Below are positions 19,551 to 21,709 of a stretch of 64,000 nt of DNA, one piece after another. Below the pieces are notes generated by a model. That model searched no databases. It had not been told where the DNA came from and worked only from the letters and a program-made list of their open reading frames with translations. Source of the stretch: Gammaproteobacteria bacterium (lineage in GTDB: Bacteria; Pseudomonadota; Gammaproteobacteria; Steroidobacterales; Woeseiaceae); the NCBI GenBank assembly GCA_009937445.1, contig JAACFM010000004.1, forward strand, positions 1-64,000. The letters are read 5' to 3'. A program made the position numbers and the translations under genes. Each line of letters starts with the position of its first letter. The first letter of the stretch is position 1.

Positions 19551-19822
19551 TTTAACAAAATGCACATAAATTGCAGATTCTTCGGACCACCACACCCCAT
19601 TTGACATAATGATCGGCCTGCTCTCCGATTCGATTGTCGAAGAGAATTCCGTAGGCCAGCAGTTTTCCCTGATAGAAAGGTCCGATAGTGCAACGCGTCA
19701 GACCAACCCCGATCTTTTACGCCCAAGAAACGTCGGCTTTTTTTACAAAATACAAGCCTTTAGTCTACGCCGACGGATTGAACAGCGGCTAAACCATTGA
19801 ATTAGCGGTGCTTCGACAATAG
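19551..19822 (+). other. intergenic region upstream of the sigma-54 promoter
   Basis: No credible gene. A weak hairpin followed by seven T's ends at about 19744 (CCGAT...GTCGGCTTTTTTT) and may terminate the upstream operon. A 10-bp inverted repeat, ATTGTCGAAG (19633-19642) and CTTCGACAAT (19811-19820), flanks the stretch and could be an activator site, but may be chance. Confidence 0.4.
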
Positions 19823-19842
19823 TTGGCACAGGTCTTGCTTTT
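19823..19842 (+). promoter_or_regulatory. sigma-54 (RpoN) -24/-12 promoter
   Basis: TTGGCAC-AGGTC-TTGCTTTT matches the RpoN consensus (YTGGCACG-N4-TTGCW). The invariant GG (19825-19826) and GC (19837-19838) are separated by exactly 10 nt. The predicted start is about 12 nt downstream of the GC, near 19850. No protein start follows before the terminator at 20024-20054, so the transcript appears to be non-coding. Confidence 0.8.
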
Positions 19843-19849
19843 AATATTA

Positions 19850-20054
19850 GAGCCCAAGCGAAGCGTAACTGCAGATTGATAACAACACGGTCAGAGACGG
19901 GATTTAGACGCCAGAAGAATAATAACTATAAAAATAAGAAGATCCAGATCCAATAACAATAAGAAACACTTTGTCGCCGGTTATCGAATTCGCAGTTACC
20001 TCTTTTGAAAAAAAGAGAAATTCAGCCCCACAGCTCACGCCGTGGGGCTTTTTC
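19850..20054 (+). ncRNA. putative RpoN-dependent, A-rich (Hfq-decoy type) small RNA
   Basis: A roughly 205-nt transcript is bounded by the sigma-54 promoter and an intrinsic terminator, with no convincing ORF. It carries three A-rich blocks of AAN triplets: 19915-19926, 19930-19941 and 19952-19966. Such repeats bind the distal face of Hfq and resemble the CA-motifs of Pseudomonas CrcZ/CrcY. The block region is closed by complementary 8-mers (GTAACTGC 19865-19872, GCAGTTAC 19992-19999). A GAAA-capped 7-bp hairpin (20000-20017) and the terminator follow. Homology to CrcZ is not claimed; the resemblance is in architecture. Confidence 0.6.
20024..20054 (+). terminator. Rho-independent terminator of the sRNA
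   Basis: 8-bp perfect stem AGCCCCAC / GTGGGGCT (20024-20031, 20042-20049), 10-nt loop, followed by TTTTTCTT. It lies 65 bp before the next gene start. Confidence 0.85.
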
Positions 20055-20118
20055 TTGTGTGGCACTTTGCCCTTTTGTTCTTGTCCGAATAGGATCAGAG
20101 CATCAGAGGGGATCAATC

Positions 20119-20907
20119 ATGAACAAAATGACACCCATAAGAGGACTAACGTTCGCGCTCACTTTCGCTTTGATCGTGGGCTTCGTCCAGCAACCCGCAG
20201 TGGCGACTGAGTCCGGCCAATCAATTTATGACGCTGCGGTCGCAAGCACAGCAAGACCGGAGTCCGATCGTGCTCATGACGCCGAGCGCAAACCAGCGGA
20301 GGTTCTGGCGTTTCTGGGCATCGAACCCGGCATGAACGTATTGGACATGTTCACCGGCGCTGGATACTACGCAGAAATCATCGCTAGCGTTGTTGGCGAA
20401 GAAGGAAAAGTCATCGCACATTCAAACGAGGCCTACCTGGGTTTCGTCGGTGCTGCCTTCGAGGAAAAATTTGGCAGTGGTCGCCTGACGAATGTGGAAG
20501 TTCTCATGGCCGAAAACAACGAGCTGTCCCTTGAAACCAATTCTTTGGATGCCGTGATGCTAGTGCTGTCTTTTCACGACCTTTACCACTCAGACGAAGA
20601 GAATGGCTGGCCACCGATTGACGCCCCGGCTTTTCTGGCTGAGTTGAGAAAGGGCCTGAAGCCGGGCGGCTTTGTAGGGATTATTGACCATTATGCGGAG
20701 GCTGGGGCGCCTGCTGAAACCGGTAATACCGTGCATCGAATTGATCCGGCCATAGCAATTGCAGAAATGGAAGCGGCCGGATTCATACTCGATGGCCAAA
20801 GCGACCTGTTGCGAAACCCGGATGACGACCTGACCAAGAGTGTCTTTGCTCCGGAAATCCGCGGCAAGACCGATCGCTTCATTATGCGCTTCAAGAATCC
20901 CGACTAA
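20119..20907 (+). CDS. exported class I SAM-dependent methyltransferase-like protein
   Basis: 262 aa from the ATG at 20119, preceded by GAGGGGATC. The N terminus is a typical signal peptide (about 1-30, ending AVATES), followed by a methyltransferase fold: ERKPAEVLAFLGI, the motif I region MNVLDMFTGAGYYAEIIA, then LDAVMLVLSFHDLYH and LKPGGFVGIIDHY. Motif I reads DMFTGAGYY rather than the usual DxGxGxG. Exported members of this family occur in other gammaproteobacteria. Because SAM is not normally available in the periplasm, either the signal is not used or the protein has another role. Confidence 0.8.
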   Translation: MNKMTPIRGLTFALTFALIVGFVQQPAVATESGQSIYDAAVASTARPESDRAHDAERKPAEVLAFLGIEPGMNVLDMFTGAGYYAEIIASVVGEEGKVIAHSNEAYLGFVGAAFEEKFGSGRLTNVEVLMAENNELSLETNSLDAVMLVLSFHDLYHSDEENGWPPIDAPAFLAELRKGLKPGGFVGIIDHYAEAGAPAETGNTVHRIDPAIAIAEMEAAGFILDGQSDLLRNPDDDLTKSVFAPEIRGKTDRFIMRFKNPD

Positions 20908-20938: not shown

Positions 20939-21709
20939 ATGTTCAAAGCTGTACGCATCTCAATATTGCTGTTCGTCCTGATCTTCGTAGGCCTCAGCGC
21001 ATTTCTAACCCAGACGAGAAGTACGGACTGGAATAACAGCCTGTGGATCAAGGTCTACCCCATCAATGCCGACGGCAGTCCCGAGGCGGCCCAGTACATT
21101 CAGGCACTGAAATCGTCCGACTTTGAAGGTATCGAAACGTTTCTTGAGCGGGAGACAGAACGCTACTCGAGAACTCTGAGACAGCCAGTTCGTATCGAAC
21201 TGGGAAGCGAAGTCAAAGAACAACCACCGCAGCTCGATGCTGACCCACACGTCATGTCGGTGATGCTCTGGTCTCTGAAATTGCGCTGGTGGGCCGGTAG
21301 TTCGACCGACGCTCAGGATCGTATCGACCCGGATGTGCGAATTTTCGTTCGCTACCACAAGCCTGATCGTGCCGTGATACTCGAGAATTCCGTTGGCCTG
21401 CAGAAAGGTATGGTGGGCATCGTGAATGCGTATGCCAGCCGGCGATACCGCGGCACGAACAACGTCATTATCGCCCATGAGTTTCTGCACACGCTCGGCG
21501 CCTCCGATAAATACAGTGCCGTTGACGGACAACCGATAGGCCCTGACGGCTTGGGAGAACCCGACCAGCAACCACTTTATCCGCAACGATTTGCCGAGAT
21601 CATGGGCGGTCGCATTGCTCTTGCAGAAGACGACTCTGTTATTCCGCAGAGTCTGAAGTACGCCGTTATTGGATCGCTAACCGCCAGTGAGATAAATCTG
21701 TCCAGATAG
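20939..21709 (+). CDS. membrane-anchored putative zinc metallopeptidase
   Basis: 256 aa with one N-terminal membrane helix (about 7-24). The only clear motif is HEFLHTLGASD (H180, E181, H184, D190), a HExxHxxGxxD zincin signature of the kind seen in snapalysin-type enzymes. The family is otherwise unknown to me. The catalytic domain is probably periplasmic. It starts 31 bp after the exported methyltransferase gene, so the two may form a small envelope-directed operon. Confidence 0.7.
   Translation: MFKAVRISILLFVLIFVGLSAFLTQTRSTDWNNSLWIKVYPINADGSPEAAQYIQALKSSDFEGIETFLERETERYSRTLRQPVRIELGSEVKEQPPQLDADPHVMSVMLWSLKLRWWAGSSTDAQDRIDPDVRIFVRYHKPDRAVILENSVGLQKGMVGIVNAYASRRYRGTNNVIIAHEFLHTLGASDKYSAVDGQPIGPDGLGEPDQQPLYPQRFAEIMGGRIALAEDDSVIPQSLKYAVIGSLTASEINLSR

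Follow-up and report, generated by a model that had tools for sequence, protein, structure and literature searches.

Positions 19823–20054 of the 64 000-nucleotide stretch of Woeseiaceae DNA analysed here (the window) contain a genuine gene for a small RNA (sRNA), and all of the elements that an earlier note had listed for this DNA are found in their places. Comparison of sequences among related genomes establishes that the gene is conserved, together with its sigma-54 promoter, an upstream activating box, a pattern of A-R-N triplets, a rod structure and an association with the regulator PrsR. The activator, indicated by a PrsR-type box, is what is new beyond the earlier note. We favour the reading, at a probability of about 0.52, that the gene specifies a stand-alone sRNA that is controlled by PrsR and sigma-54, is made with the PEP-CTERM/exosortase programme, and acts by occupying or titrating Hfq, possibly with additional pairing through its 5' end. 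Among the papers listed by a literature search, judged by title and the opening lines of the abstract and mostly outside subscription journals, none describes an sRNA from Woeseia or one belonging to the PrsR regulon.

Gene structure

The coordinates of the gene and its elements are given in Table 1. The promoter reads TTGGCAC-AGGTC-TTGCTTTT, with GG at 19825–19826 and GC at 19837–19838, and the predicted +1 is position 19850. A -24/-12 promoter with these two dinucleotides 10 nt apart had been proposed from the window, and it is borne out there and in every one of 49 copies compared. These copies comprise 28 from the same genus (window copy included) and 21 from other Woeseiaceae; one copy split between contigs (in G029) and one truncated copy (in G320) were omitted, and none was dropped for a missing promoter. 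The predicted transcripts of the 49 copies are 182–216 nt long. The three runs of AAN triplets recognized earlier (19915–19926, 19930–19941 and 19952–19966) are all present, as are the GAAA-capped hairpin and the strong intrinsic terminator, and the complementary 8-mers that close the structure show compensatory pairs between copies. A short repeat, GGCACTTTGCCCTT, lies 3' of the terminator (20060–20075) and is found in some close relatives; one of the copies (L004) repeats a similar unit.

Table 1. Elements of the sRNA gene and its upstream region (positions in the window)
Feature	Position	Strand	Remarks
PrsR-type upstream activating box, CGTCGGCTTTTTTTACA	19731–19747	+	consensus [CT]GTCGR-N5-YTTACA, 17 bp
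IHF-like site, TAAACCATTGAAT	19790–19802	.	between box and promoter
sigma-54 -24/-12 promoter	19823–19841	+	GG-N10-GC, 49/49 copies
sRNA gene	19850–20054	+	about 205 nt, from the predicted +1 through the U-run
5' segment, GCCCAAGCGAAG	19852–19863	+	candidate seed; near-invariant, mostly unpaired
Closing helix P1, 5' arm, GTAACTGC	19865–19872	+	pairs with GCAGTTAC at 19992–19999
Inner rod helices P2/P3, 5' arm	19876–19897	+	arm-pairing permutation test
Hairpin P4, 5' arm, GGATTTAGAC	19900–19909	+	pairs with part of 19939–19951; RNAalifold consensus
First A-R-N block	19915–19941	+	nine triplets, the fifth TAT in the window copy
Second A-R-N block, AAT AAC AAT AAG AAA	19952–19966	+	most aligned copies keep it as CCAATAAYAATAA
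3' arms of P3, P2 and P1	19969–19999	+	fold; arm pairing
GAAA-capped hairpin, CTCTTTTGAAAAAAAGAG	20000–20017	+	fold; in relatives a hairpin with variable loop
Intrinsic terminator	20024–20054	+	fold; stem shows compensatory pairs

Occurrence and gene neighbourhood

A blastn search with 19800–20070 recovered the RNA in the source genome (G000) and in 28 of the 36 other genomes of the same genus, and gave no match in the genomes of other families (0/23). The match starts at query position 22–24, the -24 element, in 22 of the 28 and ends at 257–259, the end of the terminator, in 19; since its edges lie near these two elements, the match represents a conserved gene that is bounded there. The two matches in G029 come from a single gene that is divided between contig ends. 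The covariance model R1, built from an alignment of 28 copies (A1), matches the window at 19851–20057 with 225.7 bits, the window copy being itself part of the model. Of the 396 genomes of the order that were searched, 94 have an R1 match: 64 belong to the same genus (73 genomes, own included), 21 are other Woeseiaceae, and nine, with weak matches, are from other families. At least 11 Woeseiaceae outside the genus have no R1 match; most of the genomes are incomplete MAGs. At least one species of Woeseiaceae has been cultured. Across 369 genomes of the class, R1 gave just two matches outside the order (G585 and G622), each of about 75 nt and resembling a terminator; one (L300) aligns at little else and the other (L301) is of equal length.

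The arrangement of promoter, A-rich blocks and terminator, whose conservation among close relatives the earlier note had made a test of its proposal, was indeed found in those relatives. A pattern scan reported 83 stretches, from which 80 loci were recovered; 77 of these are the sRNA (73 by pattern, and L123, L133, L136 and L172 by eye) and three (L119, L131 and L167) are chance matches. Among unusual copies, L102 (G320:C220) has an intact promoter and terminator and the entire A-R-N middle is gone, through either a true deletion or an assembly fault, and in L026 and L029 the second A-R-N block and the 3' arm of P4 are deleted.

The neighbourhood of the gene was compared at 38 loci, with neighbours called mechanically from long ORFs and with three weak matches that resembled chance terminators (L094, L096 and L100) excluded. 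A beta-propeller/amidohydrolase gene is next upstream in 36, mostly about 300 nt away. At L101 a spurious short ORF intervenes upstream, L088 lies on a contig without an upstream gene, and L093 has a pdxH-like gene upstream, named by eye. In the window, a methyltransferase gene (20119–20907) follows in the same orientation, starting about 64 nt beyond the terminator. A further conserved gene, encoding 256 amino acids without a Pfam match (20939–21709), is near the RNA in 32 of the 38 loci, two of them in another family.

Secondary structure and the 5' segment

The predicted transcript (19849–20060) folds at -56.1 kcal/mol, compared with a mean of -39.5 kcal/mol for shuffled sequences (z = -4.1; 0/200 shuffles as stable). 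A long interrupted rod, P1-P2-P3, encloses the middle of the RNA. Rod arms of the same species pair better (mean -21.9 kcal/mol) than arms combined across species (-17.6 kcal/mol), and the same holds when P1 is left out (-15.0 against -11.9 kcal/mol); in both cases 0/5000 permutations were as good, related genomes being counted as independent. P1 carries compensatory changes to GTAATTG/CAATTAC in two copies and to GTAGTTG/CAGCTAC in one. The hairpin P4, which presents the first A-rich block, is mostly invariant and has no covariation support.

The first 11 nt of the 5' segment are invariant in the 28 copies of A1 and in the 21 aligned copies from elsewhere in the family. Written as GCCCAAGCGAA, the segment does not vary among the aligned copies, and a diverged copy (L296) retains GTGCCCAAGCGA of it; GACGCCAGAAGAA is nearly invariant. 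The segment is not preserved in the positional orthologues of other families that are described below. Conservation of the 5' segment and GACGCCAGAAGAA exceeds what a pure decoy would need and thus counts against titration alone.

A-R-N blocks and Hfq

The first A-rich block, in the 41 of the 49 copies where it is 27 nt long, varies by phase, with entropies of 0.21, 0.17 and 1.09 bits at the three positions of the triplet: A occupies 93% of first positions and A or G 98% of second positions, and all four bases occur at the third. The longest A-R-N run is seven to nine triplets in 14 of the 21 copies from other genera and nine in six of the 28 from the same genus, the others having four or five; a TAY triplet often interrupts the first block in the same-genus copies. 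Taken singly, the runs are not exceptional in the window copy, where the longest run of five was reached by 44 of 500 dinucleotide shuffles. Among eight copies treated in this way, five (L001, L010, L021, L072 and L073) were matched by 28–128 of 500 shuffles and three copies with nine triplets by 0–1 of 500. The A-rich blocks are therefore significant because of the comparison across species and not because of a single sequence.

The distal face of Hfq is described as accepting A-R-N triplets in six pockets (PMC4063720, PMC6422490), and the aligned pattern, with its free third base, fits this distal-face pattern. A similar A-R-N periodicity is reported for the 6-ARN Hfq/Crc site of amiE (PMC6422490), which is the ribosome-binding site of an mRNA, whereas the triplets here would lie in the loops of an sRNA. 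Hfq was detected in 13 of the 15 Woeseiaceae genomes tested and is absent from two reduced genomes that are also without the RNA; the motif YLVNGIK is intact in all five Hfq proteins read. The two reduced genomes (G130 and G201, genus g23) also lack PrsR and nearly all sigma-54 activator domains.

The upstream box and PrsR

The box [CT]GTCGR-N5-YTTACA ends 74–76 nt before the TGG of the -24 element in 47 of the 49 copies, and the two copies off the consensus (L004 and L016) have one changed base each. Between box and promoter, an IHF-like TAA-N4-TTGA lies 33–34 nt before the TGG in 40 of the 49 copies, as the best match to YAANNNNTTGATW, which we take to be the IHF consensus; eight or nine of the nine fixed positions are matched in 36 of the 49 copies, compared with 3.4% of shuffles.

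In the account of Haft 2006 (PMC1569441), proteobacterial PEP-CTERM genes are preceded by a 17-nt motif 1 with the 3' end TTTACA, separated from a sigma-54 motif by a spacer that averages 62.8 nt (32–92), and PrsR is the predicted activator at motif 1, with a few extra sites before other genes. Dependence on RpoN is reported for one PEP-CTERM gene (PMC9850573). Judged by this published description, the present gene resembles the PrsK/PrsR–sigma-54 regulon in its 17-nt box ending in TTTACA, its spacer of 74–76 nt (within the range of 32–92 nt), its sigma-54 promoter and the presence of an encoded PrsR. It differs from the regulon members that Haft 2006 describes, which are PEP-CTERM genes and a few others, in that the product is an RNA. 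Two other assignments of the box were rejected: the spacing is N11, not the N10 of a NifA-type TGT-N10-ACA site, and the published CbrB subsite TGTTAC does not match it. The most likely activator is PrsR, from the PEP-CTERM/exosortase system, and not CbrB.

The source genome encodes PrsR (TIGR02915, 702 bits, cut-off 502.6). At a threshold of E <= 1e-150, at which a fragmented PrsR can be missed, PrsR was found in 22 of 25 RNA-positive and two of 10 RNA-negative Woeseiaceae genomes (Fisher p = 2.6e-4, genomes treated as independent); the samples were drawn from 85 RNA-positive genomes of the family and from at least 20 without a match. The three RNA-positive genomes without PrsR at this threshold are G022, G155 and G187, and the two PrsR-positive genomes without an R1 match are G005 and G118. 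In G118 a diverged copy, undetected by R1, does exist: it has the box, the promoter, GTGCCCAAGCGA, A-R-N triplets and a terminator. G118 is still counted here among the RNA-negatives. The upstream neighbour is missing in G005 and in G001 too (E <= 1e-20), and G179 keeps this neighbour and has neither RNA nor PrsR. PrsR was also found in eight of 13 genomes of other families tested that have no convincing R1 match; PrsR thus does not require the sRNA. In the source genome, five of the nine long ORFs found within the 14 kb that surround prsR were scanned, and none of these five was PrsK or an exosortase.

Positional orthologues in other families

Six of the weak R1 matches, in families f6 and f15 (L092, L093, L095, L097, L098 and L099), share the neighbours of the Woeseiaceae locus. 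These orthologues have A-R-N-rich stretches and terminators, and their sequence is diverged. In L092, L093 and L099 the box stands 73–75 nt before a sigma-54 promoter, and all three genomes have PrsR; L095, L097 and L098 have neither box nor sigma-54 promoter, and their genomes are without PrsR. This co-loss of box, promoter and PrsR is the best independent support for the proposed control by PrsR. Five of the orthologues, those in f6 (L092, L095, L097, L098 and L099), share a conserved 3' module, about GCAGCCAGGCCGCATACTTGAAACCGTAAACTCCGATAAC.

Other sites with the box and a sigma-54 promoter

In 14 genomes the box alone (TGTCGRNNNNNYTTACA) gave 33 sites compared with 17 for the reversed control, an excess of about twofold that makes it weak evidence by itself. 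Several of the box sites with a sigma-54 promoter precede genes for proteins ending in VPEP..., the PEP-CTERM signal. The composite of box and promoter gave 65 sites in 32 genomes, compared with one for the reversed pattern. The sRNA or a positional orthologue accounts for 17 of the 65, and in the source genome the sRNA is the sole composite site. Another 28 of the remaining 48 precede PEP-CTERM genes, 27 by their C-terminal pattern and one (L377) with its correct start; the other 20 comprise different genes, non-coding stretches and probable chance matches. Ten of the downstream proteins were scanned: nine, all PEP-CTERM, pass TIGR02595, and the tenth, which is PagP-like, is below the cut-off. 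Apart from these nine, the PEP-CTERM calls rest on the C-terminal pattern. One PrsR-negative genome (G105) has a single composite match (L378), and one PrsR-positive genome (G058) has none. In 25 leaders of PEP-CTERM genes A-R-N triplets are little enriched, the longest run having a median of 2.

Five composite sites in other PrsR-positive families (L336, L333, L339, L344 and L347) are followed by stretches judged by eye to be non-coding and to have terminators. The stretch at L336 (G043:C13), where 250 nt hold 10 overlapping three-triplet matches, is strongly A-R-N-rich. L333 (three matches) and L339 (two) are no richer than the PEP-CTERM mRNA of L377 (three), and L344 and L347 have none. By synteny, none of the box-linked non-coding stretches in families f5, f8, f9, f10 and f16 is at the Woeseiaceae locus.

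Comparison with CrcZ and CrcY

The earlier note had suggested an analogue of the Pseudomonas RNAs CrcZ and CrcY, outside Pseudomonas and not encoded beside cbrB. The position agrees with this: the neighbours are the beta-propeller/amidohydrolase gene and the methyltransferase gene. Homology does not. An Rfam search detected no family at the gathering threshold in the window, so that the RNA is not a member of the CrcZ/CrcY family; under permissive settings CrcZ (RF01675) scored 23.5 bits (E = 3e-4, cut-off 95), restricted to the A-rich 19922–19984. The likeness that stands is one of kind: CrcZ and CrcY are sigma-54-dependent, have an IHF site and A-rich repeats for the Hfq distal face, and are not translated, and the present gene likewise has an RpoN-type promoter, is a stand-alone sRNA and has A-R-N repeats of the Hfq type. 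In contrast to CrcZ, it has a covarying rod, a PrsR-type box instead of CbrB subsites and a different locus, and no degenerate Crc was seen; it is about half as long, with one or two A-R-N runs compared with the six A-rich stretches of published descriptions of CrcZ. The role in catabolite control that the comparison with CrcZ had carried with it is without support, because the activator is most likely PrsR and not CbrB. None of eight activator sequences scanned in the source genome was named CbrB, and NCBIfam may have no CbrB model.

No catalytically degenerate Crc was found among the ExoIII-family proteins examined, from a few genomes. L233 (source genome) and L238 (G099) are ExoIII-type, with 2jc4 and 6fk4 as their nearest solved proteins. 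L234 (G099) is nearest to the nuclease 2jc5 (317 bits), ahead of Crc (263 bits), and keeps residues lost from Crc: its QETKA, GDWNIAH and SDHAP correspond to QDTRA, GSLYVAH and SQHAP in Crc. Its counterparts in G001 and G005 have the same motifs by eye. The member of this branch in the source genome is split across two frames, with QETKA and SDHAP in the pieces.

Proposed mode of action and alternatives

We propose that the two-component activator PrsR and sigma-54 would switch on the sRNA when the PEP-CTERM/exosortase programme for extracellular matrix proteins is on. In loops held by the rod and the hairpin, the A-R-N triplets, in one or two runs, would dock on the distal face of Hfq, and the U-tail could take the proximal face. 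Once induced, the sRNA may occupy Hfq and so free A-rich mRNAs from repression by Hfq, a titration like that of CrcZ, and the invariant 5' segment may add pairing to this. Transcription, binding of PrsR, binding of Hfq and titration are all predictions from comparative data. Against this reading count the small number of A-R-N runs (one or two, compared with six A-rich stretches in CrcZ), the copies without the second block (L026 and L029) or the A-R-N region (L102), the low A-R-N enrichment of the PEP-CTERM leaders, and the genomes in which PrsR and the RNA, or PrsR and composite sites, do not coincide. What is shared across families is the A-R-N runs with the terminator, and PrsR control where PrsR exists, which favours Hfq occupancy. 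Within Woeseiaceae, the invariance of the 5' segment suggests pairing in addition. Hfq occupancy with titration is the most likely action, with pairing as a close rival, and the 'decoy' role is still hypothetical, since a 5' segment that is invariant and mostly unpaired fits a base-pairing sRNA too.

Class II Hfq sRNAs such as ChiX and MgrR have an A-R-N/AAN motif, a terminator U-tail and a conserved unpaired 5' segment. The present RNA has both the A-R-N/AAN motif and the rho-independent terminator of this class, and its order of seed, A-R-N blocks and terminator fits; it differs from ChiX and MgrR in promoter type and lineage. It is possible, though less likely than titration, that PrsR and sigma-54 drive such a base-pairing sRNA, with the A-R-N block and U-tail serving only to hold it on Hfq and the unpaired GCCCAAGCGAAG pairing with target mRNAs. 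It speaks for this that the first 11 nt do not vary among the 28 copies from the genus, that L296 retains the segment and that the segment is mostly unpaired in the fold. The search for targets speaks against it: in a small test, 25 PEP-CTERM leaders bound the 5' segment at a mean of -8.4 kcal/mol compared with -7.7 kcal/mol for shuffles, the one strong leader match (L377) is in a genome without detected RNA, and antisense 11-mers in 2.1 Mb were confined to three chance loci, selected for containing the segment. That the other-family orthologues do not keep the segment also weighs against it. A protein other than Hfq, for example one like CsrA or Crc, is an unlikely partner, with the A-rich blocks as incidental single-stranded linkers: the invariant or nearly invariant GGATTTAGACGCCAG contains one GGA, but no second such motif occurs in that stretch, the ExoIII-family proteins examined retain catalytic residues, unlike Crc, and the A-R-N phase with its free third base fits the Hfq distal face.

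The remaining alternatives concern the nature of the gene, and Hfq occupancy by a stand-alone sRNA stands well ahead of both. With the methyltransferase gene so close behind on the same strand, the promoter might serve that gene and the interval be a 5' leader ending in an attenuator; we consider this very improbable, as the first downstream gene varies between relatives while the RNA persists. Least credible of all is a gene for a small protein, in which the AAN triplets would be lysine and asparagine codons. The third-position variation would suit codons, and in 12 of the 49 copies the AAN frame is open and has a start codon; however, the other 37 lack a start in this frame, the positions of the 12 starts are not conserved, and an in-frame stop interrupts three of 41 blocks (L082, L084 and L101). 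The earlier view that the interval holds no credible ORF is thus upheld over the 49 copies, no conserved ORF having come to light, and the small ORF was rejected for its scattered starts and in-frame stops.

More broadly, we rate as about evenly balanced the proposal that in this gammaproteobacterial order the PrsK/PrsR exosortase systems include a regulatory arm made of RNA that links the matrix to Hfq regulation. It would consist of PrsR/sigma-54-driven, A-R-N-rich RNAs that are positional orthologues in Woeseiaceae and two other families and that arose anew or moved in at least one additional family (the non-syntenic L336 in G043); of the non-coding stretches at PrsR boxes in other families, L336 alone is clearly A-R-N-rich. 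If true, an extracellular-matrix programme would be tied to cell-wide Hfq regulation in the way that CbrAB and CrcZ serve carbon control, and CrcZ-style RNAs, controlled by sigma-54 and binding Hfq, could work with a different activator and with no Crc demonstrated. PEP-CTERM/exosortase systems are described as having a preferential distribution among sediment, soil and biofilm bacteria (PMC1569441). An sRNA within the PrsR regulon would add a post-transcriptional arm to matrix production.

Four of the genes with a PrsR box (L358, L363, L364 and L366) encode similar secreted proteins of about 180 amino acids. One of these, L364, resembles the lipid A palmitoyltransferase PagP (40 bits, below the cut-off) and is a possible member of the PrsR regulon that is not a PEP-CTERM protein.
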